Below, in pieces: positions 1 through 63,326 of a stretch of 63,326 bases of DNA. Under the pieces are notes generated by a model, which ran no database searches, was not told where the DNA came from, and was given only the letters and a program-made list of their open reading frames with translations. Origin of the DNA: a virus. The stretch is from positions 1-63,326 of the IMG/VR virus record IMGVR_UViG_3300044731_000425; one strand, 5' to 3'. Numbering within the stretch: position 1 is the first letter of the stretch; the number at the start of each line of letters is the position of its first letter. Made by a program: the position numbers and the translations under genes.

Positions 1-352
1 TACGTTCTACTGATTCATATGATAATAATCTTAATTCAACATTATTAGCGAACCAAAATCGTCCTAAGTCACGGGACATTTTGATAGAATAGTCTTCCAT
101 TCCCAAGTCGTATGCTATTAAAGGAAAGTAAATATCCTTTACTTGATCATAAGTAGGAGCAATGATGTACACTGTTTTATTAGGCACCTTAGCTGCTAGC
201 TCGAGTAATTCAAATACAGCTGTAACTGCACACACAGCAGCCATATATGATTTACCCCAACCCCTCGCGCAACACACTACGGCGTATCTTAATTTTTGCT
301 CTACAAATAAATGTTTATATATTTCAGATTGTGCTGGATGAAGGTTAATCAT
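1..352 (-). CDS. terL: Terminase large subunit, N-terminal part (cut by window edge)
   Basis: This is the packaging ATPase/nuclease that pumps DNA into the prohead; only the first 117 codons are in the window. The start is the ATG at 352-350, which overlaps the end of the preceding small membrane gene by 8 bases. The N-terminus shows an adenine-binding-type Gln (HPAQ, residues 5-8) and a terminase Walker A, CCARGWGKS (residues 27-35), in the R-G-x-GKS form typical of TerL. It is followed by the segment YIIAPTYDQVKDIY, a usual TerL ATPase strand. Walker B and the nuclease domain lie outside the window. The family assignment is firm; the subfamily cannot be judged. Confidence 0.9.
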   Translation of the reverse strand, partial: MINLHPAQSEIYKHLFVEQKLRYAVVCCARGWGKSYMAAVCAVTAVFELLELAAKVPNKTVYIIAPTYDQVKDIYFPLIAYDLGMEDYSIKMSRDLGRFWFANNVELRLLSYESVER

Positions 353-7808: not shown

Positions 7809-7811
7809 AAC

Positions 7812-7967: not shown

Positions 7968-7990
7968 ATCTTATCTCTCAGTAAATGCCG

Positions 7991-8519: not shown

Positions 8520-8521
8520 TG

Positions 8522-9394: not shown

Positions 9395-9506
9395 TTTCGA
9401 TTTCCTTCTGGATTTTAAATAGGTTCTTTAGCTGTCTGTTTCTGATCAAAAGCTCTTGTTCTAACAACTGAATAGCATGCTTCTTTTCAATTATTAGAAT
9501 TTCCAC
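9366..9506 (-). CDS. Small coiled-coil protein, GTG start
   Basis: A 46-residue frame from GTG 9506 has AAGG a few bases after the ligase stop and runs 29 bases into the next gene. The sequence is almost wholly helical (KKHAIQLLEQELLIRNRQ). No other candidate occupies this gap. The call depends on a GTG start with short spacing. Confidence 0.4.
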   Translation of the reverse strand: MEILIIEKKHAIQLLEQELLIRNRQLKNLFKIQKEIENENKTEQEV

Positions 9507-9513
9507 CTGCCTT

Positions 9514-10884: not shown

Positions 10885-10946
10885 TTCTTAATCCCCAATA
10901 ATACCTTTAGAATATCCCAAGCTAATTCAGCTAATTGTTTATACAT
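10881..10946 (-). CDS. 21-residue peptide coupled to the ligase gene
   Basis: MYKQLAELAWDILKVLLGIK plus a final Lys forms a likely amphipathic helix. CGGAGAAA precedes the ATG at 10946, and its stop overlaps the ligase start (ATGA). It may be a leader that delivers ribosomes to the ligase start after the terminator at 10961-10982, or a functional micropeptide. Confidence 0.45.
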   Translation of the reverse strand: MYKQLAELAWDILKVLLGIKK

Positions 10947-10960
10947 AAATTTCTCCGATT

Positions 10961-10982
10961 AAAAGGGGAACCGAAGTTCCCC
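10961..10982 (-). terminator. Rho-independent terminator with TTCG tetraloop
   Basis: GGGGAAC-TTCG-GTTCCCC followed by TTTT on the minus strand, directly after the 10988-11137 stop. The seven-pair stem with a UUCG loop is very stable and separates the nrd operon from the ligase unit. Confidence 0.95.
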
Positions 10983-10987
10983 TAAGA

Positions 10988-11137
10988 TTAATTCCACGCT
11001 AAATATTCATTAATACGATAACCAGTAGTTCCCCACTGGTATGCTTGAACATACTTATACTTACGATATAATGCTCGTAATTGTTTTCTGCGATCTCTGC
11101 TATTACCGCTTAACACAAAATGACTTGGGCTAAGCAT
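10988..11137 (-). CDS. Small basic protein downstream of nrdA
   Basis: This 49-residue protein is rich in Arg, Lys and Tyr (RDRRKQLRALYRKYKYVQAY). It starts at ATG 11137, which overlaps the nrdA stop by 8 bases, the same pattern that joins nrdB to nrdA. A longer open frame to 11389 lies inside nrdA and has no support. Function unknown. Confidence 0.6.
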   Translation of the reverse strand: MLSPSHFVLSGNSRDRRKQLRALYRKYKYVQAYQWGTTGYRINEYLAWN

Positions 11138-23274: not shown

Positions 23275-25494
23275 CTATGCGAAAGCGTATTCGCTTTCTA
23301 GAATTAAATTAATATCAAGATCACCCATCTCAAGATAAGTAAGATCTCCGTCAATATCATCCATTATTGGAAACAATGGATTATCTTTATAAAGTTCTAC
23401 AAATGTCTCGCGAACTATTCTAAAGAGATTTGGCATGTCAGCAAATAAACAACCATAGCTGTCATGAATTGTTGTAATTGTAAAATCACAACGGTGTGTA
23501 GTAAGTGCTAAGTGTGCTGCATCTAAACTATGAATAACGTTAGGTGCTGCTCCTTGAGACTGCTTACCTTTACTAGGAACCACATCTTCAATAAAACATA
23601 TTGCTAATTGAAAAGTGTTTTCATAATAACCTGTAGATTTACGTGACCCAACTGGTGGCCCATACTGTACATAAATCTTTTTAACTTTACCTTCTGTATA
23701 ATTTTGTACCACAGGAAAGTTTACTATTGGAACATTCCATGATAAAAATTCTTCAATTTTCTCACAGTTTCTTCCGGCATTCTCAAATATATTTAACAGC
23801 CTCATTGGCTTCTCTAATGAAGCTTTACAATCTTCAAATACTAATCTGCCCAGCCAAGCTCCCCATTTATGCTCCATATGAAGTAGCAAGTCTATTCCAT
23901 GCTTTTTTGCATCAAGGATTTGTTGCTCTCCCAATCCATAGCTGCTACCTCCATAAGGAAGAGTCATAGTGTTTCTTTTAACTATCTTCCTTCTTTGTTT
24001 CAAATCCTTTATACGATTCCAAAATACAGGTGCTGCAACAGAGCCAATATCAGCCCATTGTTGTTTATAGGCTTTAATTTGAGCTACTAGTTGATTCCTA
24101 ATTTCAGACTTAGGTTCGGATGCAGTAATCTTTTTCTTTAATTTAATTAAGCCATCTATAAAATCTTCACATTGAAAGATTAAATCCGCTGGCATTCTTG
24201 CTATGTCATTAGATATTTTATTCCATACATGTTCGGCAACATATGCATATAAATCACCTGGAAGTTCTAATGGAATTAAATTAACATATGGAGCTGTTAT
24301 TTCATCTCTTGTTAATGCAGATAAATGTTGTGAGCCGTTCGTTGATCCGTCAATAAAACATTCAACATGTGACTCATACTCTAAATATCTTGGTCCCAAT
24401 TTTAAAGCATTTCTTAATTCAATACATGCACTTAAGAATTGCCATGGCTTATCTCCTGACATCCATCCTTGATTTACTTTTGGACTTTCTGCATATGATA
24501 ATAAAATCTCTTGATTGTCTAATACCCACTGATATCGGTCTTTGAGATTGATCTTATCCGTCTTTGCACCATCTTCACGTCCTGATGAACCTGCCCAGTT
24601 ACTGGCGATAGATACACATAGCCAAAAGAAACCCTCTTCACCAATTACTTTCTTATCTTGACGCATTAAAAGACCTTTAGCAATATCACTAGATTGTTCA
24701 TGGAGATATGCCGTTGTTGGATATTTCCTTCCACGGAAATCAAGGTAATACATATGGTAAAATACAGTATCCATGAACTTATCTGCTATAGATAGAATAG
24801 CTTTTGTTTCCCTTAATTTAGTAGTCTTAGCTTGAGGATTTTGCTGCTCCCATATATCACTAAATGCATCAGTATGGTTATTCAATGCCCATTTAGAAAC
24901 ATTATAAACTTCTTTGTTTATTTGCCAACCCGTATTTAAGCTCTTATTTACTGAATCAAATACTATAGGATGTGTTGCAGGTGTTAATTTTGTTGGAACA
25001 TCTTTATTACCCGTCTTGACTAATACTTGTCCAGTAGGGTGTTTGAATTCTGTATAAGATTCATATGGTGTTACTGAAGGTAATTTACCCTTGGCACCTT
25101 CTCTGCTTACACTTTCCCATAGTAATTGTATTGTCGCATCATCTAAGACTTCTACAATATATGTTGCATGACCATTACCAGCAGAACCTAGTACTGCTCT
25201 AAGCATTCCAAGCTCTTCAAATGAGTATAGTATGAATGCACCAGTCTTAGCCGCAACAGATGAATCTTTCTTTAAACCTCGTCTTACTGAATGCCCAATA
25301 ATGCTAATGACTTCTACCATTAATATTTGTTTGTTTACAGCACCTCTCTTTGGACGAGTGTATAAGTATACGTTAGATATTATTACATCTAATACGCTTT
25401 CTAAGTCAATTTCTTTTAGAAATTTTAGCGGACTTTGAGGAGCTATTTCTAATTGCATCCTTCTTTTTAATGACTTCAATAGTTGTATTCTCAT
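23275..25494 (-). CDS. DNA-dependent RNA polymerase, T7-like single subunit
   Basis: This 739-residue enzyme transcribes phage genes from its own promoters. It carries the DxxGR motif YLDFRGRKYP (Asp252), motif A FIDGSTNGSQ (Asp382), motif B RKIVKRNTMTLPYG (Arg502, Lys506, Tyr514), motif C IHDSYG (His677, Asp678) and the C-terminal ILESEYAFA matching the T7 FAFA end. The N-terminal domain is about 140 residues shorter than in T7. AAAGGA precedes the start. The promoter-like repeats of this window are its likely targets. Confidence 0.95.
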   Translation of the reverse strand: MRIQLLKSLKRRMQLEIAPQSPLKFLKEIDLESVLDVIISNVYLYTRPKRGAVNKQILMVEVISIIGHSVRRGLKKDSSVAAKTGAFILYSFEELGMLRAVLGSAGNGHATYIVEVLDDATIQLLWESVSREGAKGKLPSVTPYESYTEFKHPTGQVLVKTGNKDVPTKLTPATHPIVFDSVNKSLNTGWQINKEVYNVSKWALNNHTDAFSDIWEQQNPQAKTTKLRETKAILSIADKFMDTVFYHMYYLDFRGRKYPTTAYLHEQSSDIAKGLLMRQDKKVIGEEGFFWLCVSIASNWAGSSGREDGAKTDKINLKDRYQWVLDNQEILLSYAESPKVNQGWMSGDKPWQFLSACIELRNALKLGPRYLEYESHVECFIDGSTNGSQHLSALTRDEITAPYVNLIPLELPGDLYAYVAEHVWNKISNDIARMPADLIFQCEDFIDGLIKLKKKITASEPKSEIRNQLVAQIKAYKQQWADIGSVAAPVFWNRIKDLKQRRKIVKRNTMTLPYGGSSYGLGEQQILDAKKHGIDLLLHMEHKWGAWLGRLVFEDCKASLEKPMRLLNIFENAGRNCEKIEEFLSWNVPIVNFPVVQNYTEGKVKKIYVQYGPPVGSRKSTGYYENTFQLAICFIEDVVPSKGKQSQGAAPNVIHSLDAAHLALTTHRCDFTITTIHDSYGCLFADMPNLFRIVRETFVELYKDNPLFPIMDDIDGDLTYLEMGDLDINLILESEYAFA

Positions 25495-27794: not shown

Positions 27795-27850
27795 TTAGGA
27801 ATTAACAATTAATGGATAATGACTAAAGGGTTAATTGAGGGGGGACGTCT

Positions 27851-27870
27851 GAAGGGTTAATTCAACGGGT
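27851..27870 (-). promoter_or_regulatory. Promoter-like repeat, copy 5 (variant)
   Basis: AGGGTTAATTCAACGGGT has one substitution and one missing G compared with the consensus. A degenerate partner, AGGGTTAATTGAGGGG, starts at 27827, 26 bases away. It heads the unit running to the strong terminator at 25680. Confidence 0.55.
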
Positions 27871-28113
27871 TCGGTGCTGAAAACTGCGACACGCCCCGCA
27901 CTGAGAGTGCCAGTTCTGCGACCAGAAACTGCCCTACACGGCACGCGGACGGCACGCTGCCCCCTCAGTGATGCCCCCGTCTCAGGCGGCCCACACACGC
28001 CCAACTTTGAGAGGTGTGAAATCTGCCCGTCTCTGCCACGCTGAGGCTGCCCCATGCCTGTCGTATAGCTGGCCACTCAGTCGCCACGTCTACCCCCGTT
28101 CCTGTGCGAATAA

Positions 28114-28137
28114 ATGCCCCAACCGTAGTCAGGGCAT
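28114..28137 (-). terminator. Weak terminator-like hairpin after phoH
   Basis: ATGCCC pairs with GGGCAT-type sequence across a 12-base loop, followed on the minus strand by TTTATT. It lies 9 bases after the PhoH stop and could end the structural-gene transcript, though the T-tract is short. Confidence 0.4.
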
Positions 28138-28145
28138 CTCAAATT

Positions 28146-43300: not shown

Positions 43301-46300
43301 AAAGAAATCCCCAACCTTCTTACCAACATCGATAACACCGTCCCATACTAATTTTGCATTTTTCGAAATAGAGTCTCCAAGTGCAGCACCAACATCAATA
43401 ATGCCACTCCATGCCCATTTAGTGGTGTCTAAAAAGAAATCTCCAACCTTCTTACCGACATCTATAATGCCACTCCATGCCCACTTTCCAGTATCCGCAA
43501 AGAATGTACCGACCTTTTTACCGACATCTACAATACCATCCCATGCCCATTTAGTGGTATCTGAGAAGAAATCTCCAACCTTAGAGCCGACATCTACAAG
43601 ATTAGTCCATGCCCACTTTCTAGCGTCTGCAAAGAATGTACCAACTTTCGATCCAACATCAATTAAGCTATTCCATGCCCATTTAGCACTGTCTGTAAAG
43701 AATGCACCGACTTTAGTACTTACGTCAATTAAACCATTCCATGCCCACTTTCCTGCGTTTGCAAAGAATGCACCGACTTTAGTACTTACGTCAACAAGAC
43801 CGCTCCATGCCCATTTAGTGGTATCTGAGAAGAAATCTTCAACCTTAGAACCGACATCAACGATACCATTCCAAGCCCACTTTGCATTCTTCGAAATGAA
43901 ATCTCCAATTGCAGTACTAACATCAACGATGCCATTCCATGCCCATTTAGCACTGTCCGAAAAGAATGTACCGACTTTAGAGCCAACATCAATAAGACCG
44001 TTCCATGCCCATTTCCCGGTATCTGAAAAGAATTTAAGAACTTGCTTACCGACATCAACACCAACACCAGTTAAAGATGTAACAGGGGTACTACCGCCTG
44101 CGGCTGCAGCTAACTTATCCCAAAGACTTGACCCTTTAGCTGCTGAATCAGATAAATCAGTTGCTGACTTATTTAATTTAAATGCAGAAGTATCTAGAAT
44201 TTCGGTATCAATAGTTACATTGGTTTGAGTAGGTTTTTCTAAGACAGGGATATTAGAGAATAAAGGACTTCTTGTTTCTGCATTAGCAATCTTATTTACC
44301 ATACCACCTAATGCAAACTTAGGAAGTTTATCATTATTAATAGCATTAATCAAATTACCATATTTAGCAGTTGATTTAGCATTTATAACAAATTCACCAT
44401 TGGATAATTTAGCCATTATCGAATCAGATGTACCAGTTCCCGGGCCTACTATCGGACCGCCCTCTGCAAAGCCAAAGAAATTACCAACATCATTTTTAAA
44501 GAAACTGCCGACACTCTTAGAGAAATTACTAGTTGCAGCAGAAGCAGTAGTAACTCCTGGAATAGAATTAATACCCTTATCAAACATCTTAAAGATGCCT
44601 TCACCAAGGCCTGATGCCATGTTTTCAACAGCACCGCCTTTACCAAAGCCTAATGAATTAGTTACACCAGTAGAAAAAGAGTTAATAGTAGAGTCGATTA
44701 AATTTTGTTTGAGTTTAGAAGCAAAGGTTTGGAATGCATTTTGTCCACTATCTTTTTCGCCACGTAACAACCCTTTAAATGCGTCTGTAAAGCCAGTAGT
44801 TAATGTGCTAGAAAAGGCCTTTCCAGCGTCTCTTGCTGCTCTAATACTAGCCGCTGCAACTTCTGACTTGTCCCCCATATCCTTGATATCATCGCCAAGA
44901 CTAAGAATTTTACCTGCTGTATCAACAGTTGATTTACCTGCTTTTGCGTCAACAGCCATTTGATATTCTAAATCAGCTTGTTGATGGACTAATATGCCTG
45001 TTTTAACCTTATCTTCTTCTGTCATAAGATCAATATTTTCAGCGCTTAATCCGCTATATTCTCTAAGGAATGCTGTAATATTTCCTGTAGAAGCTTTACG
45101 GAATGCATCCATTTCTTTTAAGGTAGTAGGCATTGTGTTTGCAGCCAGACCTTTATTAGTACCTTCGACACCTGCAGATGCATTTAGTCTATCTTGGAGA
45201 AACTGCTCAGTAGGTTTACCAGCTTTAATTGCAGCATCTATATCAGCTTTTAATTGATTAATTTTACCGGCAACAGTTAATGCATAATTCTTAAGCTCAG
45301 TATTCATACCTAAGAATGCGTCTTCAGTAAAGCCAGCTTCAGTTATTAAAGTCTTTTGTGTTTCACGACCTAATGCGCCACCTGCTTTAACTAAATCAGC
45401 ATTAGCAGTGTTTAATGTTTCTTGATTATTAGCCGCTATCTTATATGTTTCAATCCATAATTGAAACGCAGAAGCCATTTCATCTTTTACTGTATTAGCT
45501 TTTAATGCAACAGTATTTAATGTTCCATCAACTTTAGTTACTGGGGCAGATGTATCAGCAACAGGAGCGCCCTTAAGATACCCATACACATCCCTAAATC
45601 TGGAAATTTGATTTTGGGTCTCTGTATTATTATAGCTATTGCCAAAGCCTACATTATAACCGCCTGCAGTCATTGCAAGATCTTCGTTATTTCTTTTCAA
45701 TCCTGACTTATAGTATTTAGCACCTGCAAATATATTTTCACGAGCATCTGTATAGTCATTAAGCTTATGCCATCTAGGCACTAATTGCATAACACCAATA
45801 GCACCTTTATCACTTACAGCATCTTTCTTTAATCTGCTTTCAACAATTCCTAATGCTTTTAAAGCTATCCAATCAACATTGTATTTAGTTGCCGCTTCTT
45901 TGAAGATTGCATCATATGTTGAATTATTTAGTTCTTTGGCACTGAATCCTTCTGGGACTGCCATGCTTGACGCTTTTGGCATCGGTGCCAGCTCTGACTG
46001 CGGAATAGCTGTTTGTGGGGACTCTGCGGTACCGCCTGTGGCCGGCTTTCCTGCAATTAGGTCAGTGACAGCCCCACGAAATTCTGAGGCACCTGACTTG
46101 ATATCTGCGCCAGCTGTGAGAAGCATTTCAGAGAAACTTTGAGGTGGTGTCAATTTGCCAGCAATGTTTAAATTAGCAAACTCTTTACCAAATCGCGATT
46201 CCATTCCAGATAGGATATCCTTAATCGGCATACCACCTTTAAGTTTATCTGTTGCAAAATTATACATTTCACCTGACATAGAGTCCATCTTTTGCAATGC

Positions 46301-49300: not shown

Positions 49301-52300
49301 ATAACTTCCCATGCGGTTAAAATCTTTGCGTCTATCTGCTGGAGTCATTCCTGCATATTGCGCTTCAAGATCTTTTTGCAATAATTGCTTCTTTATGGCA
49401 GCATTACTAGTATATAAACTTCTATCAACATTAGCAGGAGTCAATCCTTGTGAAATCTTTGTATCTAATACGTTATTAGCAAGTTCTTTTGCTGCATTAA
49501 ATCTACTACGTTGTACACCAACAACACCTGCTGCAATTGCTGGAATTAATCCACCAAAGAGTGTAGCTGCTACGTCCACGTGAGAACCACCCAGTTCGAA
49601 AGAACCCATAAAGGCTTTTCTTCCGCGTTCACCGGCCTTCTTAAACTCGTCAGTACTTTCTAAGAATGGTATACGAAATAAAACTGCAGCGCCAACACTG
49701 ACTATGGCTGCCCGCCAAGTAGATATAAATTTCAGAGTATTAACCATCAGGGCTAAAGCTTTGGTCATCAATGTTATTCTATTTGTTAGACCAGTAAGGC
49801 CTCCCATTGCGCCTGCTACTTCTGCTAACCATAGGGATACAAACTTACCCCCCATTGTTTCTCTTAAAATAGCTGTTGCACGTGCCATTGCATATAATTC
49901 AGCTGTATATAGTTTAAGTCTTGGAACAAATTTGTCTGGACTAGTTCTGGCAAGTATTTCACCTTTTTCTTTTACAGTATCAAATACTTTTGTTAAATTA
50001 GGAAACTTTTGGAATCCTTGCTGCAATACAGTTCCTGCTCCGCTTGTAATAGGCGCTGAGCTTTCTTGTAAGAATCTAGCAAACCCTCTAACTGCTGTTT
50101 GGCCTTTAGTTTCTGGACCTTTACTTGGATTAGGCTCAAAAGCGCTTCTGAACCTATCAAAACGAGATGTTCGTTCTTCTTTATAAGTTCTTTTTCTATT
50201 TCTAAGATCTGCAGCAACTGCTTCTGCCATAGTTCTATCGGACATGCCTTGTTTTAATTCAGAGCTATATTTACTGATATTAGCGCCTAAGTTCTTGACT
50301 ATACTACTACCACCGATCTTACTTGCTAGCTTATCTAGAATAGGAGATGCTTGACGCATCGTATCCCACAACGCACTTACATAGAGACCTGTATAAGACT
50401 TCATGTTTAAGCCAACAGACTTTAATCCTGATGTAGCTGCAATACCTTGAAATGCAAGTAATTGATTACCTAAAGCTGCTAATGCTGCTCTAAATAATGT
50501 AATAGGGCTTAATGCTAATTGCAAATTAATCAGAGGTTTATATAGAGCTGTTAACGCCCCAGCTAGTAGTGCAATACCGCCAATAGCTACTTGGCTAGGT
50601 GTGAGACTGTCCCACATGCCTTTTAAACTTGTTGGTAAGATATCTGAAATATTTTGAATAAGATTTTTAAGACCATTAGTAATAGATAGTGATAATCTGT
50701 CATATCCGTATCCTACTTCATCTGCAATCTTTTGTAATACAGTATGGCCTGTACCACGACCTGTCATTTCTCTGAAACTAGGAACAGGAATTCTATGATA
50801 CGGTTTTACAGTTTCAGCACGAGGTTTGTTTATTAAGTCTGTAGGTGGCCCTTGTGGAGCTTCTTGAATACCTCTGTAAAATGTCTCACCATTCAATGAA
50901 GGTGTCATTGTATCAGCGCTTGACATATTAGAAAATGTTAATGCACCAAGTGCTGCTACAGCTAACATAATCCATTTTACAATAGGATGCCCAAACGCGG
51001 ATGCAAGAAGTGGTGATACCGCTGCAAATCTTGTTGTTGCATAGTTATAGGCACTTTCAATAGAATTATAAAAAGCTCCTAATGAAGTTGCGGGTATTCC
51101 TGTTGGTCCAAAAAGTAATCTAGAAAAGAATGTTCCCGTACCAGTGCCAGTAAATGCAGAAGCAAAACGTTCTCTCATACCTGCAAATAAATTAGCAAGT
51201 ATAGAAGGATCTCTTACCATGCTGCCTAGCATTCCAAACATTCTTACAAGATTGCCTCTTATAGTACCCTCTGGAAATAGCATAGATAATTCGCGCATTA
51301 CCGGATATATAATTTTAGATCTAATTGCATCAATACCGCTTGGCCCCATTAACGCTAATGCAATTAAACCGCCTTGCATATATGCATGCCCTAAAGGACT
51401 ATCATAGAATACTTGATCAAACATCCCTAATTGATCAGCAACCAATGCGACCATTGCACTAGAACTTACTACATTGCCTGAACTAAAGAATGAGGATGAC
51501 GCACGACTCATTGCAGTTTGTGGTCTAGACTGGTATCCAACTCCAGGAGGTAATGGTGGCCCCATTCCTACGTGTGCAGGGTTAGTCATTAAACGTGTCA
51601 TATTGTGGCCAGCAACAGCAGTATTTGCCATTGTTCCACCAAAGAATGAACCAATAGAGCCTGTTACTTTGAATATTCTAGAAATTTGCTTTTCAAATAT
51701 TCCTAATGTAGATAACATTTTAAGAGCGGGTCCGCCAAATAGTAATGCACCAATCAAGCCACCAGCTGTACTAAACTGAAATAGATCCAGTATCCCATAT
51801 ACCATGCTCGCAACAGTACCTACAATTGGGATACTCTTCAAGAAGCCTTCAACAGCACCGCCAATGAATCCTAACAGATTAGATATAATTGCAGGCAAGT
51901 CCGCTAATATTCCTAATAAAACTGTTCCAGCTACTTTGCCTGCCACTTTGCCAGCTTCTACAGAGAAGCTAACACCAAATCTTACATCAGCAAATACGTT
52001 AGCAAATGCTAGCCCTGCAGCAATAGCGGCTCTTAAGAATAAGCCACCAAGCATAGAAGTAATTCTATTTTCTGGCAGTAATAGCGATACAAAAGCTAAT
52101 CCAAAAACATTAGCAAAAGCTGTTAATGAATGTTTTAATTCTTCTGGCAACCCATCAAATAAGTTTTTAGCAAAGTCTTTAGCTATTTCAATAGATTTTC
52201 TAAAATTGCCTGTTGAGATGCTGATTACAAAATCACTACGTAAGGTATCTGCGACTATGCTTCTAATTTTTCTAAAGCTACTTACAACACCGTCACCAAT

Positions 52301-55057: not shown

Positions 55058-55070
55058 TTGTTTTCTCCAT

Positions 55071-55113
55071 AAAAAACCCCTCCACTAATACCATAAAGGT
55101 AATAATAAAGGGG
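55071..55113 (-). terminator. Rho-independent terminator before the tape measure gene
   Basis: CCCC and GGGG ends (55077-55080 and 55110-55113) enclose an imperfect AT-rich stem with loop TTTAT, followed by six T on the minus strand. It lies 6 bases after the gp10-like stop. Confidence 0.8.
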
Positions 55114-55118
55114 TGTTA

Positions 55119-55412
55119 TTAATTAGGTGTTACGATAACACCATTCGCGTTAACGTTTCCATTAGCTAACAAAGTTCTCTCAATAAAATGAGAAGGTGCT
55201 TGTTTACTTGAGCCAGCATTCAACTCCTCTATATATTCAACTTCATTAACTATTTTTCCATCTTGAAGTTTCCAACCATCACGTGCTCTTCCCGTGTCTA
55301 CTGGAGTTGCTTCTTTTAACGCTTCTATTAATTTTAAAGATTCACGCTCTAAGATAGTTTTAGATCTTTTTGCTAGTTCGGCTCTAAAATCAAGATTTAT
55401 TTTTACAGTCAT
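55119..55412 (-). CDS. HK97 gp10-like tail completion protein
   Basis: This 97-residue protein contains LIEALKEATPVDTGRARDGW, the P-V-D-T-G-x-x-x-x-x-W motif of the gp10-like family, and a C-terminal PSHFIERTL. The start overlaps the frameshift-product stop (ATGA). Such proteins sit at the head-tail or tail-tube joint. Confidence 0.75.
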   Translation of the reverse strand: MTVKINLDFRAELAKRSKTILERESLKLIEALKEATPVDTGRARDGWKLQDGKIVNEVEYIEELNAGSSKQAPSHFIERTLLANGNVNANGVIVTPN

Positions 55413-56067
55413 AATTTAAGAGTCTCCCCACCAACTGCTCCAGCTATTTTCTGGAAGAATCCAGAACGTTTAAAGTTACTAGGGCTGAGTGCATTATCTT
55501 GTCTATCTTCTGATTTACTATTATAAATTGCATCCAATGAAGAAAACAAATTCCAAGGCTTCTCTTTAACGCCCTGTGCTTGTATTAATTTAGCCGCTCT
55601 ATCATCTGCCCTCCATTCATATGGCCTACGCTCAAAGTAGTTAAGCCACCCTAAGAATTCATCATAAGGCATTTCATCTACCATTTTATACACAGGCATC
55701 TTTAAATGAAAAGCTATTTCATAGATAGGTAAATCATTATCACTTAGTTTTACTTTCCCGCGTCAGAGCCTTGACCTAGGCCTGAATACTTCATAATTTC
55801 ATTAGATAATTTAGACAATTCATCCATCGGGAAATTATCGAATTCTGAATCATCAAGGTCCGAACCGCCTTCAACAGCAGAACGAATAACAGTCTTTAAG
55901 AGTTCTAAACCAGCTGAATCATCTTTTTCGATATTAGCAGCTTTAGACTGAATTTCTAGCACTTCTGCAACAGTAAGCTTAGAAATCTTAACATCACTGT
56001 TTAAGAATTTAACTGTTTTGGTCATACGTTGGCCAACTAAGTTTTTGATACCTTTTGCTTCTGACAT
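55409..56067 (-). CDS. Tail assembly chaperone GT, made by -1 frameshift
   Basis: Reading starts at 56067, slips back one base at 55753-55759, and continues in the other frame to 55409, giving about 219 residues. The T part (114 codons) includes DEMPYDEFLGWLNYFERRPY and AQGVKEKPWNLF, the usual T-domain signature. Its own frame has no convincing ribosome site near ATG 55699. By analogy with lambda gpGT it recruits the tape measure to tail-tube protein. Confidence 0.85.
55750..56067 (-). CDS. Tail assembly chaperone G
   Basis: This 105-residue protein starts at 56067 directly after the preceding stop and ends at TAA 55752-55750. It is helical and acidic (VAEVLEIQSKAANIEKDD). The last codons before the stop, GGA AAG, form the slippery site. 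It should coat the tape measure during assembly in excess over the GT form. Confidence 0.8.
   Translation of the reverse strand: MSEAKGIKNLVGQRMTKTVKFLNSDVKISKLTVAEVLEIQSKAANIEKDDSAGLELLKTVIRSAVEGGSDLDDSEFDNFPMDELSKLSNEIMKYSGLGQGSDAGK
55753..55759 (-). other. Programmed -1 frameshift site GGGAAAG
   Basis: The minus strand reads GCG GGA AAG TAA: an X-XXY-YYZ heptamer identical to the lambda G-T slippery site, one codon before the zero-frame stop. Slipping back one base joins the chaperone to the open T frame. Confidence 0.88.
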
Positions 56068-56068
56068 A

Positions 56069-56284
56069 TTACTTACCTTGATTAATTTTGCGTTCATCTA
56101 GTTGTGCTCGCATTTGATGTAAAATTGAAAGTGCTTCGAAAGCTTCAGTCTTCTTGTCTGGAGATAACGAAGCATCTTTTGTTCTTTCGAATGTTTTATT
56201 AATACTAATATCGATGCTTTTGAGCATATGTTTGACAGTGATGCCAATAACATACTCCAAGCTGAATGGTTTATCCTGAGCCAT
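56069..56284 (-). CDS. Small protein between major tail protein and chaperones
   Basis: The start at 56284 has TTAGGAAT upstream and gives 71 residues, helical, with LSPDKKTEAFEALSILHQMRAQLDER. An earlier in-frame ATG at 56311 lies in the terminator. Not recognised. Confidence 0.6.
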   Translation of the reverse strand: MAQDKPFSLEYVIGITVKHMLKSIDISINKTFERTKDASLSPDKKTEAFEALSILHQMRAQLDERKINQGK

Positions 56285-56299
56285 TTTTATTCCTAATGT

Positions 56300-56331
56300 T
56301 ATATAAAGCAAGGGAGCGCTAACTCCCTTGC
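56300..56331 (-). terminator. Rho-independent terminator after major tail protein
   Basis: GCAAGGGAG pairs with CTCCCTTGC (nine pairs) around TTAGCG, followed by TTTATA on the minus strand. It would lower tail-assembly gene expression relative to the tail tube. Confidence 0.88.
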
Positions 56332-56345
56332 ATAATTAATATCGC

Positions 56346-56981
56346 TTACGCGGCAGCGCCTACAGTGTATGCACCGCGAATATCAGATTGTACTGTGATT
56401 GTCAATTTAGCAGACAATGCATCAGTCAAACTTGGAGTTACTTCTAACGCTTCAAATTTACCTAAGAAGTAGTAAGAAGAGTTACCTACTGAACCAATAG
56501 AGTTGTCATCACCGGTAGCGTTAGCAACTGATAAGTAACCTTCTGGTTCTAATGCTAATAAAGAGAATCTGAATAGATAAATATTACCATCATTAATATA
56601 TATTTTTGATTTAGCAAAGGTACCAGCAGTAGCGCCTTCAATAGATAAAAATGAATCAGCCCATAAGCCTGGAACATAGTTCAAGGTGATTTCCATTGTA
56701 GGAGAGTCTGCTTGACCTTGAATTTGTTTAGAAGTTTTAGCACCATATTCAGGTACTTTAACGACGTTAGCTGGTGTACCAATAGCTGGAAATTCTTTGA
56801 TGTGCGTAATGCGAATAAATTGACCTGCAGCAGGTGTACCAACATCAGTAGGTCCGGCTTCTGTGGCAAAATGTGTAACTGGGCCATCAACAATAGCTGT
56901 AAGGTTTGCGGTAGTTTTTGCCATAGAACTCACAGACAAATCTGTGAACATTGCAGCGCCAATAGAAGAAATGTGTGCCAT
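56346..56981 (-). CDS. Major tail protein (tube subunit)
   Basis: This 211-residue protein has an AAAGGAA ribosome site. It has the beta-rich layout of tube proteins (FIRITHIKEFPAIGTPANVVKVPEYG, then PTMEITLNYVPG and AKLTITVQSDIRG). Its place after the tail terminator, before the chaperones, and its own downstream terminator support the call. Confidence 0.8.
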   Translation of the reverse strand: MAHISSIGAAMFTDLSVSSMAKTTANLTAIVDGPVTHFATEAGPTDVGTPAAGQFIRITHIKEFPAIGTPANVVKVPEYGAKTSKQIQGQADSPTMEITLNYVPGLWADSFLSIEGATAGTFAKSKIYINDGNIYLFRFSLLALEPEGYLSVANATGDDNSIGSVGNSSYYFLGKFEALEVTPSLTDALSAKLTITVQSDIRGAYTVGAAA

Positions 56982-56999
56982 TTTTTAATTCCTTTAAAT

Positions 57000-57410
57000 T
57001 TAAGTAGAACTTCCGAAGAAGTTGAAAGTAATTGTGTAGGTACTTTTGTGAATAACTGGTAAAGCTTTATCAGGGCCTACATGCGTAAGACTGCTTATAC
57101 CAAATTGTGTAACGCCAGAACCTGTAGTCTTAGATTTGTTTACTAAGTATTTATCTAAGACATCTGCTATTACCATAGCACGTCTTGTGCCAGAGCCTGC
57201 AGCTATAAAAATATCAATTATGAGAATGCCTGCTAATGAGTATCTATTTATAGGTTTTCCACTAGGTATCACTGATACACGAATAAATTCATCATTAGTA
57301 GTATTCATAACTACAAAATTTGTCGGGAATGTTTTTATATTTTCAGCTTTCCATCCATTAGACGAAAATACTGAGTAAACGTCTTTTTCTAATAATTCAT
57401 ATTTGCCCAT
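57000..57410 (-). CDS. Tail terminator protein
   Basis: This 136-residue alpha/beta protein has VIPSGKPINRYSLAGILIIDIF and RRAMVIADVLDKYL, the pattern of tail terminators (lambda gpU/DUF4128-like). It caps the tail tube before joining to the head. Position just before the major tail protein fits. Confidence 0.75.
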   Translation of the reverse strand: MGKYELLEKDVYSVFSSNGWKAENIKTFPTNFVVMNTTNDEFIRVSVIPSGKPINRYSLAGILIIDIFIAAGSGTRRAMVIADVLDKYLVNKSKTTGSGVTQFGISSLTHVGPDKALPVIHKSTYTITFNFFGSST

Positions 57411-57412
57411 AA

Positions 57413-57757
57413 TTATACCTCATGATAAAGTTCAACAACTGAAATATGATTGTTTGAAGTAATCACATTACCAAGATGCCATTTATCACTACCTATATAC
57501 ACATGGTCTGTCATCGAAAACGGCCCAACTTCTTTTGTTTTAAACATAATAGTCATCGTTTTCGCTTCTGTAGTTTTAGACGTTTTTGTAATAATTATTT
57601 TTGTCGTTATTGAAGGTATAGTCGTATCATTAACTTCACCAGTGCTAAAGTCAAATTCAGAATTAACTGTTTTTGTAAACACTGCTTCAATAGCCAAGTC
57701 CTTAGCTGCATTAAATGCTTTATTTAGCTGGACACCAATTAATGAATTATAAGCCAT
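57413..57757 (-). CDS. Head-tail connector (head closure) protein
   Basis: This 114-residue beta-rich protein reads TKIIITKTSK...TIMFKTKEVGPFSMTDHVYIG. Placed between the adaptor and tail terminator, where the stopper protein lies in lambda-like heads. Function inferred from order and composition. Confidence 0.6.
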   Translation of the reverse strand: MAYNSLIGVQLNKAFNAAKDLAIEAVFTKTVNSEFDFSTGEVNDTTIPSITTKIIITKTSKTTEAKTMTIMFKTKEVGPFSMTDHVYIGSDKWHLGNVITSNNHISVVELYHEV

Positions 57758-58239
57758 TAATTAGCCCTCCACCATGTTCTCTTACCACTATTCCGGAGTA
57801 ATGGTTTGATGAGTGTCTTTGCAACCATGGGGATTTTATCCGCAGGTCTAATCACACTAAGTTTAATGCCACTAAGTTCTAAATCTTTAATTAAGCCTGT
57901 ATTGTCTAAGAGTCCGTCATTATTTAATAAATGATAAGCTAACTCATAAGTAGCTTTAATGACTCTTTGATCAACAACAGTAGAAACTAAAGAAACAAGT
58001 ATACCAAGCTTAGGATCAAAATATTCACCATCTTTACGGGGATGAGCAAGTGACTGAGCTGAATCTGTAGCTACTCCGATCCAATCCAATTCATCCAACA
58101 TAAAAGTAGCAGTGCATAGGGCTTGTTCTTTCTGAAGAGCAGGAGCATCAGTCCATGCCGCTACATCTAGTCTGTTCTCAAAATAAGTACTGGCCTCAGT
58201 TACGGTAGCATTTGAATTAACACCTTTAACTAGTGCCAT
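57757..58239 (-). CDS. Head-tail adaptor, DnaT-like family
   Basis: This 160-residue helical protein has ASTYFENRLDVAAWTDAPALQKEQAL, the start typical of gp6-like connectors often annotated as DnaT-like. It directly follows the capsid gene. It should sit under the portal. Confidence 0.7.
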   Translation of the reverse strand: MALVKGVNSNATVTEASTYFENRLDVAAWTDAPALQKEQALCTATFMLDELDWIGVATDSAQSLAHPRKDGEYFDPKLGILVSLVSTVVDQRVIKATYELAYHLLNNDGLLDNTGLIKDLELSGIKLSVIRPADKIPMVAKTLIKPLLRNSGKRTWWRAN

Positions 58240-58249
58240 AACCTACTCC

Positions 58250-59491
58250 TTAAGAATGGAATACAGGTAAGATACCTAATGATAATGCAGAAGCTGTTTT
58301 ACGTGTCCATGTACCACGTGCGTTAGCAATAGTACCAGTTGCAGTCAATGCTTTAGAAGTACCGCTTTCAACAACACCCATGTAATTTGCATCAGATGGG
58401 AATTCAGTTTTAGCACCATTCCAATCGTAACCAGCAGGAGATAATACATAACCCCAACGATTCCAAATAGAAGTTGTACCACCACCTTTGTATTTGTTAG
58501 CGTCACGGTAAACTTCAACTGAATCAGGAACCGTCAACTGTTCCATTGCAATCGCACCTGGCAATACAATGAATGAAGTTTTCTTATTAGCAGCAAAAGT
58601 AGTTGCAGCACCAACGCCAGCACCAGTACGTAACATTGTTAATTCAGCAGCAGAAAGCGACTGAGCAGCACGTGTAGTGATTAGACGGAATTTACCATTG
58701 AAGATTGTGTTAAAGTTAATGTTACCATCAACAATAGTTGTTTCATCAACAAAGTTAGCTGAACGGAATGAAGCCATAGTTTCAGGAGATACAATTAAGT
58801 ACGCCCATTCTGGTTCATAATCTTTAAATGCCATACCAAATGCATTTAAGAAACCTTCAGCACGTGAAGCACCTTGATATGCATAGTTAGTAACCGCACC
58901 AGGAGCCACACCATTAGCAGTAACGATTTTCTCAGAACCAAGATCTACGTAGAAACCATATTTCTTATCTGTAGGATCGTTAGAGAATGTTTGACCGCCA
59001 AGACCGGTTGAACCTGAACCTGTAGCAGCACCGTTTAATGCTTCAGCTACAGCAACACCTTTCAATACAGAAAGAATAGCATTGTGTTCGTCTTGAGCGC
59101 GGGTTTCACCGAAGTCACGACCAATTTTAGCTAAGCCGTCTTGTTGTGTAACAATTTGTTGCATGTTAACTTTTTCGGCACCGTGTGTACGCACAGTTTT
59201 AATATATGTGCTGTAGTCAGTGTCGTAATTGGTTTTGACGCCGTCTGCAGATTCAGTTAATGACGCAACGTTAATAGTTGGGTTTAACGGTTTCATCCAA
59301 CGCATTTGACCAATAAAGGTTTCTGTGCTAGTATCAATTTGTGGATTAGAAGAAGTAATACCTGTGCCAGATAATTTTCTTGCATTGGTATAAGCTTCAT
59401 CGCTGTAAGCACCAATTGCTTCTTGTAATACATAGTTATTTGTTAAGCCAGCCTGCATACCTGTAGGCAAGGTACTTGTTGTAACGCCCAT
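58250..59491 (-). CDS. Major capsid protein
   Basis: This 413-residue protein directly follows the scaffold gene. The N-terminus (about 80 residues) suits an N-arm, GAEKVNMQQIVTQQDGLAKIGRDFG a long spine helix, and the end WNRWGYVLSPAGYDWNG an HK97-fold P-loop/A-domain segment. Ala/Thr-rich insertions are present. No maturation protease gene is visible next to it in the window. Confidence 0.8.
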   Translation of the reverse strand: MGVTTSTLPTGMQAGLTNNYVLQEAIGAYSDEAYTNARKLSGTGITSSNPQIDTSTETFIGQMRWMKPLNPTINVASLTESADGVKTNYDTDYSTYIKTVRTHGAEKVNMQQIVTQQDGLAKIGRDFGETRAQDEHNAILSVLKGVAVAEALNGAATGSGSTGLGGQTFSNDPTDKKYGFYVDLGSEKIVTANGVAPGAVTNYAYQGASRAEGFLNAFGMAFKDYEPEWAYLIVSPETMASFRSANFVDETTIVDGNINFNTIFNGKFRLITTRAAQSLSAAELTMLRTGAGVGAATTFAANKKTSFIVLPGAIAMEQLTVPDSVEVYRDANKYKGGGTTSIWNRWGYVLSPAGYDWNGAKTEFPSDANYMGVVESGTSKALTATGTIANARGTWTRKTASALSLGILPVFHS

Positions 59492-59511
59492 TTTAATTTT
59501 CCTTAAAGTAT

Positions 59512-60150
59512 TTATTTCCTGCGAAGTGATCCTTCAGCAGCACGTTTAAGCACTTCATCTTGTGATAACTGGAATAAAGATTTATTCGAAGTATCTTGAG
59601 AAGTACTGCTAGAACTTGTCTGACCGGCCCCTGTCGAAACTTTTGGTTTGAATAAGAAAGAATTGTTATCGTCTTCAGAAAATTGTTTTATAAAGGTTCT
59701 TAGATCAGTTCCTGATTTATGCACCCATACTCCATTTTCATTTTGTACAAGTTGCGATGCCACATCCATATATGCCATATCCGCAGCTTTATCACTTCTA
59801 AACGTATATCCACTAAGAACAGATTTTACTTCTAAATCCCTAGCGAGTTCTATGTTACGTTTTGTTATCGTTTCCAATTTAGCATTGGCTTCCGCTAACT
59901 GAAGTTCATAAACTTCTTTATGTTTTCCTTCTTCTTGAAGTCTTTTTATTTCAGCTTCTTTCTCTTTTTGTTCATACTCAGCAGCTTTCTTTAACGCATT
60001 GTCTCTTTCGCTGTACGCTTTATCGAGTTTTTCTTTGATTGGTTTAAGAGCTTCTTGGATCTTCGTGTCCATATCATCCACAGGAGAATTGGTAGCAGTA
60101 GTATCCGGAGTAATATTATCAGTTTCTTTTTCTTCGACATTTTCGGTCAT
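59512..60150 (-). CDS. Capsid scaffolding protein
   Basis: This 212-residue protein starts at 60150 (AAAGGAAAC upstream); the longer frame to 60201 has no ribosome site. The middle is a long coiled coil (residues about 35-110). The end has DLRTFIKQFSEDDNNSFLFKP and a Ser-rich linker and basic C-terminus, typical of scaffolds. First gene after promoter-like copy 6. Confidence 0.8.
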   Translation of the reverse strand: MTENVEEKETDNITPDTTATNSPVDDMDTKIQEALKPIKEKLDKAYSERDNALKKAAEYEQKEKEAEIKRLQEEGKHKEVYELQLAEANAKLETITKRNIELARDLEVKSVLSGYTFRSDKAADMAYMDVASQLVQNENGVWVHKSGTDLRTFIKQFSEDDNNSFLFKPKVSTGAGQTSSSSTSQDTSNKSLFQLSQDEVLKRAAEGSLRRK

Positions 60151-60226
60151 TTTATGTTTCCTTTGAGTACAACTCAGTGTTATAAAGTGAATACAATTCA
60201 CCCTATAGGATATTTGTTTTTAGTAT

Positions 60227-60246
60227 TTAGGGTTAATTTAACGGGT
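60227..60246 (-). promoter_or_regulatory. Promoter-like repeat, copy 6
   Basis: AGGGTTAATTTAACGGGT lacks one G compared with the consensus. It is 77 bases upstream of the scaffold start and would drive capsid and tail genes. An inverted repeat (ATCCCTTA with TAAGGGAT, about 60250-60292) lies just behind it and could act as an attenuator. Confidence 0.65.
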
Positions 60247-60340
60247 TCTATAATCCCTTAAGATAATTATCTATTAGTATATTTCTAAGGGATAGATAAT
60301 AGACTGATTAACTAAAGGGATTAAATAAAGGGGGACCGCT

Positions 60341-60361
60341 TTAGGGTTAATTTAACGGGGT
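60341..60361 (-). promoter_or_regulatory. Promoter-like repeat, copy 7
   Basis: An exact copy of the 21-base element, 114 bases from copy 6, with a degenerate partner AGGGATTAAATAAAGGGG starting at 60316 (27 bases away). The pair of strong copies in front of the scaffold gene mirrors the pair at 1278 and 1433. Confidence 0.65.
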
Positions 60362-60384
60362 CTCTGTAAAGAACCTGTGCATTA

Positions 60385-60519
60385 TCATTTATGTTTAGCC
60401 CCGCATACCGTACATGTAAATCCTTTCTTCTGATCTGGATTCATCACTCTCATTCCATTACCATGAAGTTTATCCTGATTAGGATGTTGGCATGTACATC
60501 TTTTAATTTCTGCGTTCAT
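60385..60519 (-). CDS. Small zinc-ribbon protein
   Basis: This 44-residue ORF starts three bases after the polymerase-like gene stop. CTCQH (residues 8-12) and CTVCG (36-40) with His43 form a likely zinc ribbon; HPNQDKLHGNGMRVMNP lies between them. The same C-x-C-x-H...C-T-V-C-G plan is seen in small proteins of other phages, of unknown role. Confidence 0.7.
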   Translation of the reverse strand: MNAEIKRCTCQHPNQDKLHGNGMRVMNPDQKKGFTCTVCGAKHK

Positions 60520-60522
60520 ATT

Positions 60523-63326
60523 TTAGCCTATACCGTAAAATCCCCAATCATCCTCAAATTTAGTAGGATCAGGAATATCGCTTAATACATCTTTCTTTGT
60601 TAAGATGTCTGCTTCTGTTAATGTTTTACCACCGACAACTGATTTACCAGCAACTGGAATTAATCCTTTATCAATAGCTTCTTCTAAATATTGATCATAT
60701 AATTCTTTTGGAAAACCTCTAGCTAACATTTCATCTAAAGTAACCTTGACAGGGTTCTTATCTAGTACGTTAGCATATAGCTTTCTTATACCCTTCCGGG
60801 CCTCCAGCATATCGGCTGCATTGGCGAAAAACGCATCGTGAATGGTGCTTGTGGCAATCTTATTGTCTCGTCCCCATAAATGGAAATTCTTGACCAACGT
60901 AGCATCGTTTGAGTGATTCCCGTTAACGGCATATGCTGTTCGTGCTTTAGTCGCGTCTGCAATGTCATTTATCTTTCCTTCAGCATTTACTACTTGTTCC
61001 CACCAAGTGGCTTCTGTTTTCTGTTGCACTTGAACTAAATTATTAACCCAATTACCATCTTTATCTTTATAGACTAATCTTTCTTCAAATGACTGGGTAA
61101 AGTTTTGCTCAATAACTTTTCCATCAAAATTAACCCATGGGACATTAGTCCAAGACTTGGGCAGCTTATTAGCATAAAATATTTCAAAACCTTTAGAGAT
61201 ATTTAATTTTTCTATAGGCTCTACTTTAAATACTTTAAATCCAGTTCTACGATCTTTTGGGCCTTTTACACCATAAATAAGATCAGCCAAGGTTCCGTCA
61301 GGTTTCCAACCATCAAATCTCTTTAAAAACTTTTCAGACAAAGCTTCTCCAGGCCTTAATCCTAATATTTCACTAACTCTATCAGGTAATACATAACCCT
61401 TTTTACGGGTACCTAATATACTAGTAGCGCCTATAGATTTCCAATCTAATGCAGCTTGTGAAGGCTTAGCATTAGTTAAATAATCTTCAGCTAGCCTACC
61501 AAAGAATTTAGTAAAATCTTTAAGAATAGGAACCTGCTCACCTAAATGTTCAGACATTAATTTAGCAATAGCTTGGAAGTCTTTTGGAGTGACAACCATA
61601 TCATATGAACGTGTCATCTTTTCTACTAGGTCTTTAGTAGCTGGATCAAGGAAGTATAATTGTTCCATTATCTCATCACCAGGGTCTAGTCCTTTATTAA
61701 AGATGTCTTTTACATTTTCTCTTAATTGCTTAAGTTCTGCAGTTGTTTCAGGATCAAACTTTTCATATCTTGCTGCACGTGCCGATATTTCATTTAATAC
61801 TTTGTCTCTATCACTAGCTCTAACTACTAATGTAGGTGCAAATGTTTCAGGCTTTTTAGTTACATTAATCAATTCTTCTTGTAATGCTGAACTAAGATCT
61901 GCTATAGTCTTTTCTGTGTTTGCAGTAGCAGGTGTAAATCCTGCATCTTCTAAAGCCATTTCAGCAGCTTGTTTATTTGTCTTTAAATTATAAACACTCG
62001 CTTCATCTTTAATGATAGTGTCTTCACCAAACCTGTTTGACTTTAAAATACGTTTTTGAGCTTCTAATAATTTAAAGGCTCTTGAATCGGAAGGGACATT
62101 TAAAGATTTTAAATGCTCATCTAAAAATTCACCGAGTTCTTCAACAACTTGCATAGCAATATATTTCTTAGTATCGCCTTTTGAGCGCTGTTCAAATTTA
62201 GCTTTATTTTCAGCTATCTTTTCTTTAGAAAATTTTTCACCAGTCTTATGATCAAATGTTTTATATGTAGCACGCTCTTTTCTTTCATCTGTTAATTCAA
62301 TATCAGAAGTATGTAGCCATTTAAACGTATTTTTTAATTCTGCAGGAGACAACTGACCTTTCATAGCCTTTGAAATTAACTCACCTTGCGATTTAATAAT
62401 CTCATCTACTGTGCCTACATAATTAGGATCTGTTTTATTATCAACACCTAATACTCTTAACAATCCTGCAGAATCTTGACGCTCGGATAATAAACCTTCT
62501 GTTACTTTTGTTTCAACAGGTTTTGCAGGTTTCTTTTCCAATACTTTTGCAAGTTTACCTTCAACATTAAGAATTCCAGTTCTTTCTCCAGCACCATAAA
62601 ACGTAACCATATTTTGAGCTTTTGCAGCTTTACGTAAATCTTTCTCATTTAAACCTAATCTCTCATTTAAAACTTTAAACCGAGGATCATTAAAAGTTGC
62701 AGCAGCAATTTCATCATATAGCCTGCGTTTCTGATTTGTAGGTATGACATTAGATAACGAGGCTAACTGTTTGTTCTTCGTAGTTAACGCAATAATCTGA
62801 GCACCTGATGATGAAGCATCTTGTTCTAAAGCTAAAGCTGTTTTGTATGCATTCATAGAGCCGCCGGCTTTAAGATGATTATCTATCTTAGCAGCTTCCA
62901 TAGCAAATCTCATGAACTTACCAAGTTCCTCACCTTCAATTAATTGCACCATATCTGATTCCAGAATGGCACGTAAATCTGCAGGTCTGGCTCTTAGCAT
63001 TTTATTACCAAGGTCTACCATATCTGGCCACAATTTATCAGCAATCTTTTGGCGTCCAGTAAATGACAATGAATTATATCTACCTTCAAATACATCATTT
63101 AGACCCCCCATAAAGGCACCTATCTGATCTCTGAAGTTTCTATATCCATCTTCGCCAAGAACCTTTTCTACTTCAGTATTTAAGAAAGGTCTAAATGACT
63201 CTCCCGATTGCGGACTAATAAGGCCACGATCATAGATCCTAGCCCGATGATCGACAAAAGCATGATTACTGAAAGCGTAACCATTATTTCTAAGCCAATC
63301 CATAGATTTAAATCGCTCATATGCAT
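60523..63326 (-). CDS. Virion-type single-subunit RNA polymerase-like protein, C-terminal part
   Basis: The frame is open to the window edge, so the true start lies beyond 63326; residue numbers count from ATG 63303. Polymerase motifs appear in order: VDHRARIYDRG (Asp18, T7 DxxGR), EQDASSSGAQ (motif A, Asp162), RKAAKAQNMVTFYG (motif B, Arg224, Lys228, Tyr236), GNHSNDATLV (T7 HSxD, His797) and TIHDAFF (motif C, His822, Asp823). Between motifs B and C lie about 595 residues against about 180 in T7, a helical insert. Its place before scaffold and capsid suggests an N4-type polymerase packaged in the virion. Confidence 0.8.
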   Translation of the reverse strand, partial: AYERFKSMDWLRNNGYAFSNHAFVDHRARIYDRGLISPQSGESFRPFLNTEVEKVLGEDGYRNFRDQIGAFMGGLNDVFEGRYNSLSFTGRQKIADKLWPDMVDLGNKMLRARPADLRAILESDMVQLIEGEELGKFMRFAMEAAKIDNHLKAGGSMNAYKTALALEQDASSSGAQIIALTTKNKQLASLSNVIPTNQKRRLYDEIAAATFNDPRFKVLNERLGLNEKDLRKAAKAQNMVTFYGAGERTGILNVEGKLAKVLEKKPAKPVETKVTEGLLSERQDSAGLLRVLGVDNKTDPNYVGTVDEIIKSQGELISKAMKGQLSPAELKNTFKWLHTSDIELTDERKERATYKTFDHKTGEKFSKEKIAENKAKFEQRSKGDTKKYIAMQVVEELGEFLDEHLKSLNVPSDSRAFKLLEAQKRILKSNRFGEDTIIKDEASVYNLKTNKQAAEMALEDAGFTPATANTEKTIADLSSALQEELINVTKKPETFAPTLVVRASDRDKVLNEISARAARYEKFDPETTAELKQLRENVKDIFNKGLDPGDEIMEQLYFLDPATKDLVEKMTRSYDMVVTPKDFQAIAKLMSEHLGEQVPILKDFTKFFGRLAEDYLTNAKPSQAALDWKSIGATSILGTRKKGYVLPDRVSEILGLRPGEALSEKFLKRFDGWKPDGTLADLIYGVKGPKDRRTGFKVFKVEPIEKLNISKGFEIFYANKLPKSWTNVPWVNFDGKVIEQNFTQSFEERLVYKDKDGNWVNNLVQVQQKTEATWWEQVVNAEGKINDIADATKARTAYAVNGNHSNDATLVKNFHLWGRDNKIATSTIHDAFFANAADMLEARKGIRKLYANVLDKNPVKVTLDEMLARGFPKELYDQYLEEAIDKGLIPVAGKSVVGGKTLTEADILTKKDVLSDIPDPTKFEDDWGFYGIG

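Follow-up and report, generated by a model that had tools for sequence, protein, structure and literature searches.

In the linear IMG/VR virus record IMGVR_UViG_3300044731_000425 (63,326 bases, analysed at its full length and hereafter called the window), we have identified at the right edge a gene whose product is confirmed, by sequence comparison, as a diverged single-subunit RNA polymerase (RNAP) fused to the C-terminus of a MuF minor head protein of the SPP1 gp7/Mu F type. We refer to this protein as MuF-RNAP. It is fairly probable that the fusion makes it a virion RNAP, which would be packaged, ejected and would start early transcription before a second RNAP encoded by the same phage comes into play.

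All recognisable genes of the window are on the minus strand. The right-edge frame (60523-63324) is open over 933 amino acids (aa), 926 aa from its first ATG, and its N-terminal side runs off the window. The missing gene end was supplied by two contigs extending beyond the edge, L006 and L005, which over the final 12.8 kb of the window (50526-63326) share 99.98% and 99.88% identity with it, respectively. In L006 the fusion gene (7475-12802) comprises 1775 codons directly after a 532-codon portal gene; the expectation, in a preliminary description of the window, that the whole protein is larger than 933 residues was therefore correct. The absent N-terminal part measures 842 residues, with the MuF domain at its start followed by a linker. 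In this near-identical contig, outside the window, Phage_Mu_F (PF04233) covers residues 146-250 with 53.3 bits against a cut-off of 29.6 (E 5.6e-14), and the 842-residue part also matches the PHROG “head morphogenesis” (5e-62), while a Foldseek search with a model of the N-terminal part found no solved MuF relative. PF04233 and RNA_pol share one open frame in proteins of 1775, 1542, 1463 and 1701 aa. Joining the two ends of the window, at which the start of a large terminase subunit gene (2-352) would meet the edge frame, is compatible in frame but wrong, as the near-identical contigs have the portal and then MuF with its linker.

The polymerase assignment is carried by family profiles and by catalytic residues. 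Pfam RNA_pol (PF00940) matched the edge frame in two stretches at E 1.2e-10 and with 41.3 bits, above its cut-off of 22; full-length relatives scored 39-45 bits and the relative DSS3_VP1 scored 27, with none of 14 control genomes positive in the family search. The RNA polymerase family phrog_414 was matched as well (E 4e-23). A profile was required to reach solved structures: phmmer with the single window sequence found no match in the PDB, and a profile of 61 homologues matched T7 RNAP (E 4e-7) and no N4 virion RNAP (vRNAP). Relatives are encoded in 388 stretches from one scan of viral contigs and in at least 527 from another, with possible overlap of the two sets, and the conservation counts reported here cover the 105 uninterrupted full-length homologues among the fetched stretches; residues are numbered in the 933-aa window frame. 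The catalytic signatures listed in the preliminary description (D18, R20, R22, D162, R224, K228, Y236, H797, D800, H822 and D823) were all found at their named positions, and each of them except R224 is invariant in 105 of 105 homologues, together with G237 and SGAQ (Table 1). The MuF C...H..CR motif is likewise kept in all 105, which comprise two main groups about 32% identical to each other. For the polymerase part, the ratio of nonsynonymous to synonymous substitution rates (dN/dS) came to ~0.06-0.09 in the pairs with computable dS, and the polymerase is therefore under strong purifying selection. Altogether, we regard the MuF-fused enzyme as very probably an active RNAP.

A structure model, one of the checks that the preliminary description had proposed, agrees with this assignment. 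AlphaFold gave for residues 576-1775 of the 1775-aa form a predicted local distance difference test score of 74.9 and a predicted template modelling (TM) score of 0.68. When this model was compared with the PDB by Foldseek, T7 RNAP came first (E 2e-12, probability 1.00, TM (target) 0.42-0.49), with mitochondrial RNAPs also among the best matches. The best viral match was a 1463-aa protein (E 7e-47), which has the same length as the DSS3_VP1 homologue. The model thus predicts a right-hand polymerase fold for this part of the protein, of which ~100 aa remain after motif C.

In some relatives the gene is interrupted within its active-site codons. Inserts in the motif B codons were located in L015 (2463-3338), L017 (902-1424), L021 (1567-2364), L068 (4824-5709), L031 (1556-2417) and L082 (12726-13508). 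They mostly match group I introns (Rfam RF00028; L015, L017, L021, L068 and EBPR siphovirus 1), with none at the gathering threshold in L031, and several contain HNH endonuclease-like open reading frames (ORFs). That self-splicing introns sit at such a site fits a requirement for the spliced gene product. A different kind of insertion is found near motif A, where in-frame domains of ~100 aa (L014, L043 and L031) or ~150 aa (L055, L065 and L068) occupy the same place, after window residue 151; two different ones match the PHROGs of unknown function phrog_30942 and phrog_5043. The window protein has its own insertion between motifs B and C, for which no convincing match to any family was obtained. 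An intein origin of the insertions was considered and rejected, since those in motif B are group I introns and those near motif A are in frame and show no intein signatures by eye. The gene of the second RNAP is also altered in two relatives, being split into two frames in G003 (C1:71554-73603) and enlarged to 994 aa in G006 (C1:18123-20177), so that insertions affect both polymerases.

The same MuF-RNAP fusion and gene order were found in DSS3_VP1 (Naomviridae), an isolated phage named after the laboratory strain Ruegeria (Silicibacter) pomeroyi DSS-3. Its protein, recorded as “head morphogenesis” (YP_010105321), is 32% identical over the matched part, and that of EBPR siphovirus 1, recorded as “head protein” (gp47-gp49), is 64% identical over the matched part; in EBPR siphovirus 1 a group I intron with the HNH ORF gp48 interrupts the fusion gene. 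Neither record mentions a polymerase, and the nearest open paper on DSS3_VP1 mentions neither the polymerase nor virion proteins. The MuF-RNAP fusion is widely distributed in environmental phages; public records give it no name other than “head protein” or “head morphogenesis”. In a scan of ~85,000 bacterial and archaeal genomes, only a single metagenome bin gave matches, in two contigs, and thus no prophage form came to light. One of the two, L177, is a phage contig assigned to a gammaproteobacterial metagenome-assembled genome (MAG); it has portal, fusion, scaffold and capsid genes, the first two overlapping by 8 bases.

In the window and its near-identical contigs the genes run in the order portal, MuF-RNAP, scaffold and major head protein. 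The portal gene upstream of the fusion matches phrog_145 (E 3e-56), and the scaffold and capsid genes follow the fusion immediately, as had been described (Table 1). The T7-like enzyme that the preliminary description had placed elsewhere in the window was recovered with strong matches, and heads the replication gene cluster. Both RNAPs were present in 12 of the 12 records of at least 60 kb examined (the window, 8 other IMG/VR contigs of its group, 1 of the DSS3_VP1 group, DSS3_VP1 itself and a 74-kb MAG contig), and a single RNAP was seen only in shorter or partial records. The tail had been estimated at about 0.9 micrometre, with which our value of ~0.88 µm, from a tape measure protein (TMP) of 5895 aa at 0.15 nm per residue, agrees. 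The TMP of DSS3_VP1 has only ~1655 residues, and a long tail is thus no necessary part of the system. Within the TMP gene of the window, 41388-44072 holds long arrays of 66-nt (22-residue) repeats, with 14 in-register copies at 42915-44072.

Table 1. Features of the window discussed in the text, from right to left (positions in the window; counts refer to the 105 homologues).
Feature	Position	Strand	Remarks
MuF-RNAP fusion, C-terminal 933 residues	60523..63326	-	Whole protein 1775 aa in near-identical L006:7475-12802
DxRxRxY motif (T7 D421/R423/R425 equivalent)	63232..63252	-	D, R, R, Y invariant in 105; aligned with T7
Motif A EQDASSSGAQ (T7 D537 equivalent)	62797..62826	-	D invariant in 105; aligned with T7 and N4 RNAP2
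Motif B RKAAKAQNMVTFYG (T7 K631/Y639/G640 equivalents)	62593..62634	-	K, Y, G kept in all 105, R variable; group I intron site of relatives
232-aa in-frame insertion between motifs B and C	61834..62529	-	Most relatives lack it; no domain recognised
HSND motif (T7 H784...D787 equivalent)	60904..60915	-	H, D invariant in 105
Motif C HDAF (T7 H811-D812 equivalent)	60829..60840	-	HDAF invariant in 105
Second CCCGTTAAATTAACCCTAA copy between MuF-RNAP and scaffold	60341..60359	.	114 bp from the first; conserved in relatives
CCCGTTAAATTAACCCTAA copy between MuF-RNAP and scaffold	60227..60245	.	Place conserved in relatives
Head scaffolding protein, next gene downstream	59512..60201	-	phrog_206 E 5e-9
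Major head protein	58250..59491	-	phrog_247 E 6e-18
Tape measure protein, 5895 aa	37370..55057	-	PF20155 E 3e-48; no DxDxD two-barrel RNAP motif
CCCGTTAAATTAACCCTAA variant copy upstream of second-RNAP operon	27851..27869	.	Variant there in four genomes
Second, non-virion T7-like RNAP, heading replication gene cluster	23275..25494	-	PF00940 E 4e-65; phrog_414 E 3e-112
Terminase large subunit, N-terminal part, cut by left window edge	2..352	-	phrog_2 E 5e-7

A course of infection can be proposed in which the two polymerases act in turn. The fusion gene is carried by the portal-MuF-scaffold-capsid operon, which would be expressed late. SPP1 gp7 binds the portal, by which a small number of copies reach the procapsid, and has a supporting part in the initiation of infection (PMC6316719); the MuF domain would likewise bind the portal and bring a few copies of the polymerase into the procapsid, and by this analogy packaging of MuF-RNAP in the head is quite probable. 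The polymerase, at least partly unfolded, would then leave with the DNA via portal and tail. In the cell, MuF-RNAP would begin transcription with a first set of genes that includes the operon of the second, T7-like RNAP, and the latter would go on to transcribe the replication and late genes, the MuF-RNAP gene among them; both steps are modelled on the conserved set-up of two RNAPs and on the phages N4 and P23-45. That MuF-RNAP is ejected and used for early transcription is, on these analogies, reasonably likely, with less assurance than its packaging.

The preliminary description had seen in the edge protein a virion-type second RNAP of the N4 kind. Its virion-type part stands as the likeliest reading, with catalytically intact motifs, a place in the head module and the MuF fusion in its favour, whereas the N4 label does not agree with the profiles, the tree, motif C or the packaging domain. 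A profile comparison with both families had been suggested there, and by hhalign MuF-RNAP matches T7-type RNAPs at 98.1% (E 1.3e-13) and N4 vRNAPs at 3.7% (E 0.012), the T7-type and N4 vRNAP profiles still matching each other at 96.9%. In a maximum-likelihood tree, MuF-RNAPs form one clade (100/100) and N4 vRNAPs another (100/100), and the phage's own second RNAP falls inside the T7-type group; the branches are long and the deeper order is unsure, including the neighbourhood of N4 RNAP2. The motifs read HDAF and DASSSGAQ here, against FD in motif C and DGxTNG in motif A of N4 vRNAP. A siphovirus that had acquired a true N4 virion RNAP could explain a weak match to the N4-like phrog_2166 (E 0.04) and the N4 vRNAPs that stand lower in the Foldseek viral library (best 1.9e-9); however, no N4 vRNAP was among the PDB sequence matches, and protein length and packaging domain differ in addition to profiles, tree and motif letters, by which together family membership was rejected, making such an acquisition very improbable. 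On this evidence, MuF-RNAP is an RNAP of the T7 superfamily on its own branch, and no N4 vRNAP.

Several observations weigh against a packaged enzyme that opens the infection. The arginine of motif B is not conserved, as R224 is alanine in 65 of the 105 homologues, and the AlphaFold model has low confidence in the window protein's insert and in the stretch before motif C. Delivery of MuF-fused domains by siphovirus tails is itself a proposal in the literature (PMC5512222). Moreover, two repeats ahead of the RNAP region of DSS3_VP1 contain a sigma-70-like TATAAT, and the host RNAP could thus start early transcription. The partial loss of R224, together with strong divergence from T7 RNAP and the domains inserted in frame beside motif A and in the stretch that joins motif B to motif C, would suit a catalytically dead relic that serves in the head as a structural or DNA-binding element. 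Yet such a relic is scarcely credible when the metal- and nucleotide-binding residues are all invariant, dN/dS is as low as given above and group I introns are spliced out of the motif B codons of relatives. Perhaps the polymerase acts late in the infected cell, for instance as a late or packaging-linked transcriptase, the MuF fusion being a matter of co-regulation or the MuF part being cleaved off so that the enzyme stays unpackaged. The gene does lie in the late head operon and the MuF profile matches include a “head maturation protease” family, but the fusion is unbroken in the 105 homologues, the long records always have a separate T7-like RNAP capable of late transcription and MuF proteins are capsid-internal (PMC6316719), which leaves a late role rather improbable. 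It is also conceivable, although unlikely, that the active polymerase is packaged and ejected and then mainly pulls the genome in by transcription, as T7 RNAP does, with the host RNAP starting the infection and reading the early genes. A genome of ~79 kb (from L005) must enter through a very long tail and the TATAAT-bearing repeats of DSS3_VP1 would serve the host enzyme; in the early region of the window, however, sigma-70-like sites are not above shuffles (29 found against 39.7 expected).

The virion role proposed for MuF-RNAP has a close parallel in N4 gp50 (Schitoviridae; PMC12633501), likewise a single-subunit RNAP of the T7 superfamily within a large multidomain protein and paired with a second phage RNAP. 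N4 gp50 is carried in the head and ejected, which would hold for MuF-RNAP as well, and its ejection was proposed to proceed as beads on a string through a channel of ~35 angstrom (PMC12633501). It differs in its length of ~3500 aa, its podovirus background, its C-terminal encapsidation region and the FD of motif C, where MuF-RNAP has 1463-1775 aa, a siphovirus-type genome, an N-terminal MuF domain and HD. N4-like virion RNAP modules were reported only in N4-like phages (PMC5512222). MuF-RNAP would work like N4 vRNAP without belonging to its family, its virion role apparently having arisen separately. The statement in the preliminary description that N4-type virion polymerases are known from podoviruses is sound as far as it goes, but leaves out a siphovirus, the Thermus phage P23-45, with a virion RNAP fused to its tape measure (PMC10770324). 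P23-45 resembles the phage of the window in its extremely long tail (TMP of 5002 aa against 5895 here) and in having a virion RNAP fused to a structural protein (gp96) next to a non-virion RNAP (gp64), and its virion enzyme transcribes the gene of the second RNAP (PMC10770324). The difference is that gp96 is a two-barrel RNAP of the cellular DxDxD type on the tape measure, a motif absent from the window's TMP, whereas here a right-hand T7-type enzyme is attached to MuF. MuF proteins and their effector fusions (SPP1 gp7, Mu F and MuF toxins; PMC6316719, PMC5512222) share with MuF-RNAP the N-terminal MuF domain, the portal-adjacent gene and a C-terminal enzyme, the cargo here being an RNAP; toxins fused to gp7-like proteins were proposed to be delivered effectors (PMC6316719, PMC5512222). 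With T7 RNAP and its relatives (PF00940, phrog_414) the catalytic motifs and the predicted fold are shared, but MuF-RNAP is not free-standing, forms its own clade and has MuF and a linker upstream.

Virion RNAPs, MuF-effector fusions and a pair of virion and non-virion RNAPs in a long-tailed siphovirus are thus each already known. A MuF-fused RNAP of the T7 superfamily was not found described in the literature searched, which was mostly open-access, and an earlier report is possible. Phage groups known to carry a transcriptase of their own in the virion are few, and the carrier differs from one to the next, being the C-terminal packaging region in N4 and the tape measure in P23-45. We lean towards considering MuF-RNAP a further independent class of virion RNAP, in which a T7-superfamily enzyme would be packaged by means of MuF, pass a long flexible tail (~0.9 µm here, much shorter in DSS3_VP1-like phages) and start a two-polymerase cascade. 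If this is true, the carrier would be a domain that is thought to deliver phage toxins, and a working MuF-RNAP would provide a functional read-out, early RNA, for MuF cargo crossing a long tail into the cell. As DSS3_VP1 carries the same fusion, this may be testable at once. The several hundred environmental contigs that were matched suggest that a start of infection independent of the host RNAP may be commoner in siphoviruses than assumed.

Finally, repeated elements were searched in the window and in DSS3_VP1. The 19-nt, near-palindromic sequence CCCGTTAAATTAACCCTAA (gene strand) occurs in the window in six exact copies and one variant copy, against 0.02 expected by chance; the copies start at 1278, 1433, 6711, 20163, 27851, 60227 and 60341, in or beside intergenic gaps. 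It is a candidate phage promoter or operator. A stretch of ~300 nt at 27840-28140, upstream of the second-RNAP operon, is G+C-rich (0.58-0.65) and of little coding potential in an A+T-rich genome; its equivalent is also G+C-rich in L184, and not in L182 or L183. In the search for early promoters, the repeated elements CCCGTTAAATTAACCC and TAGGKTRCGTTAAAGAGGGGG could be assigned to neither polymerase, and neither inspection by eye nor the repeat search identified a hairpin class like that of N4. In DSS3_VP1 (L179/L180, record 2243-73994), TAGGKTRCGTTAAAGAGGGGG occurs 14 times, always in coding direction, and is absent from shuffles; it resembles SP6-type promoters. The copies precede the portal-MuF-RNAP operon and genes that follow the second RNAP (YP_010105349), and none precedes the second-RNAP operon. 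That operon is preceded by a 32-nt element ending in TATAATGA, which occurs exactly twice, at 35790 and 36237, just after the tape measure gene, and which is a candidate early promoter. This layout fits a cascade in which another polymerase, either MuF-RNAP or, given the TATAAT, that of the host, would read the second-RNAP operon first.

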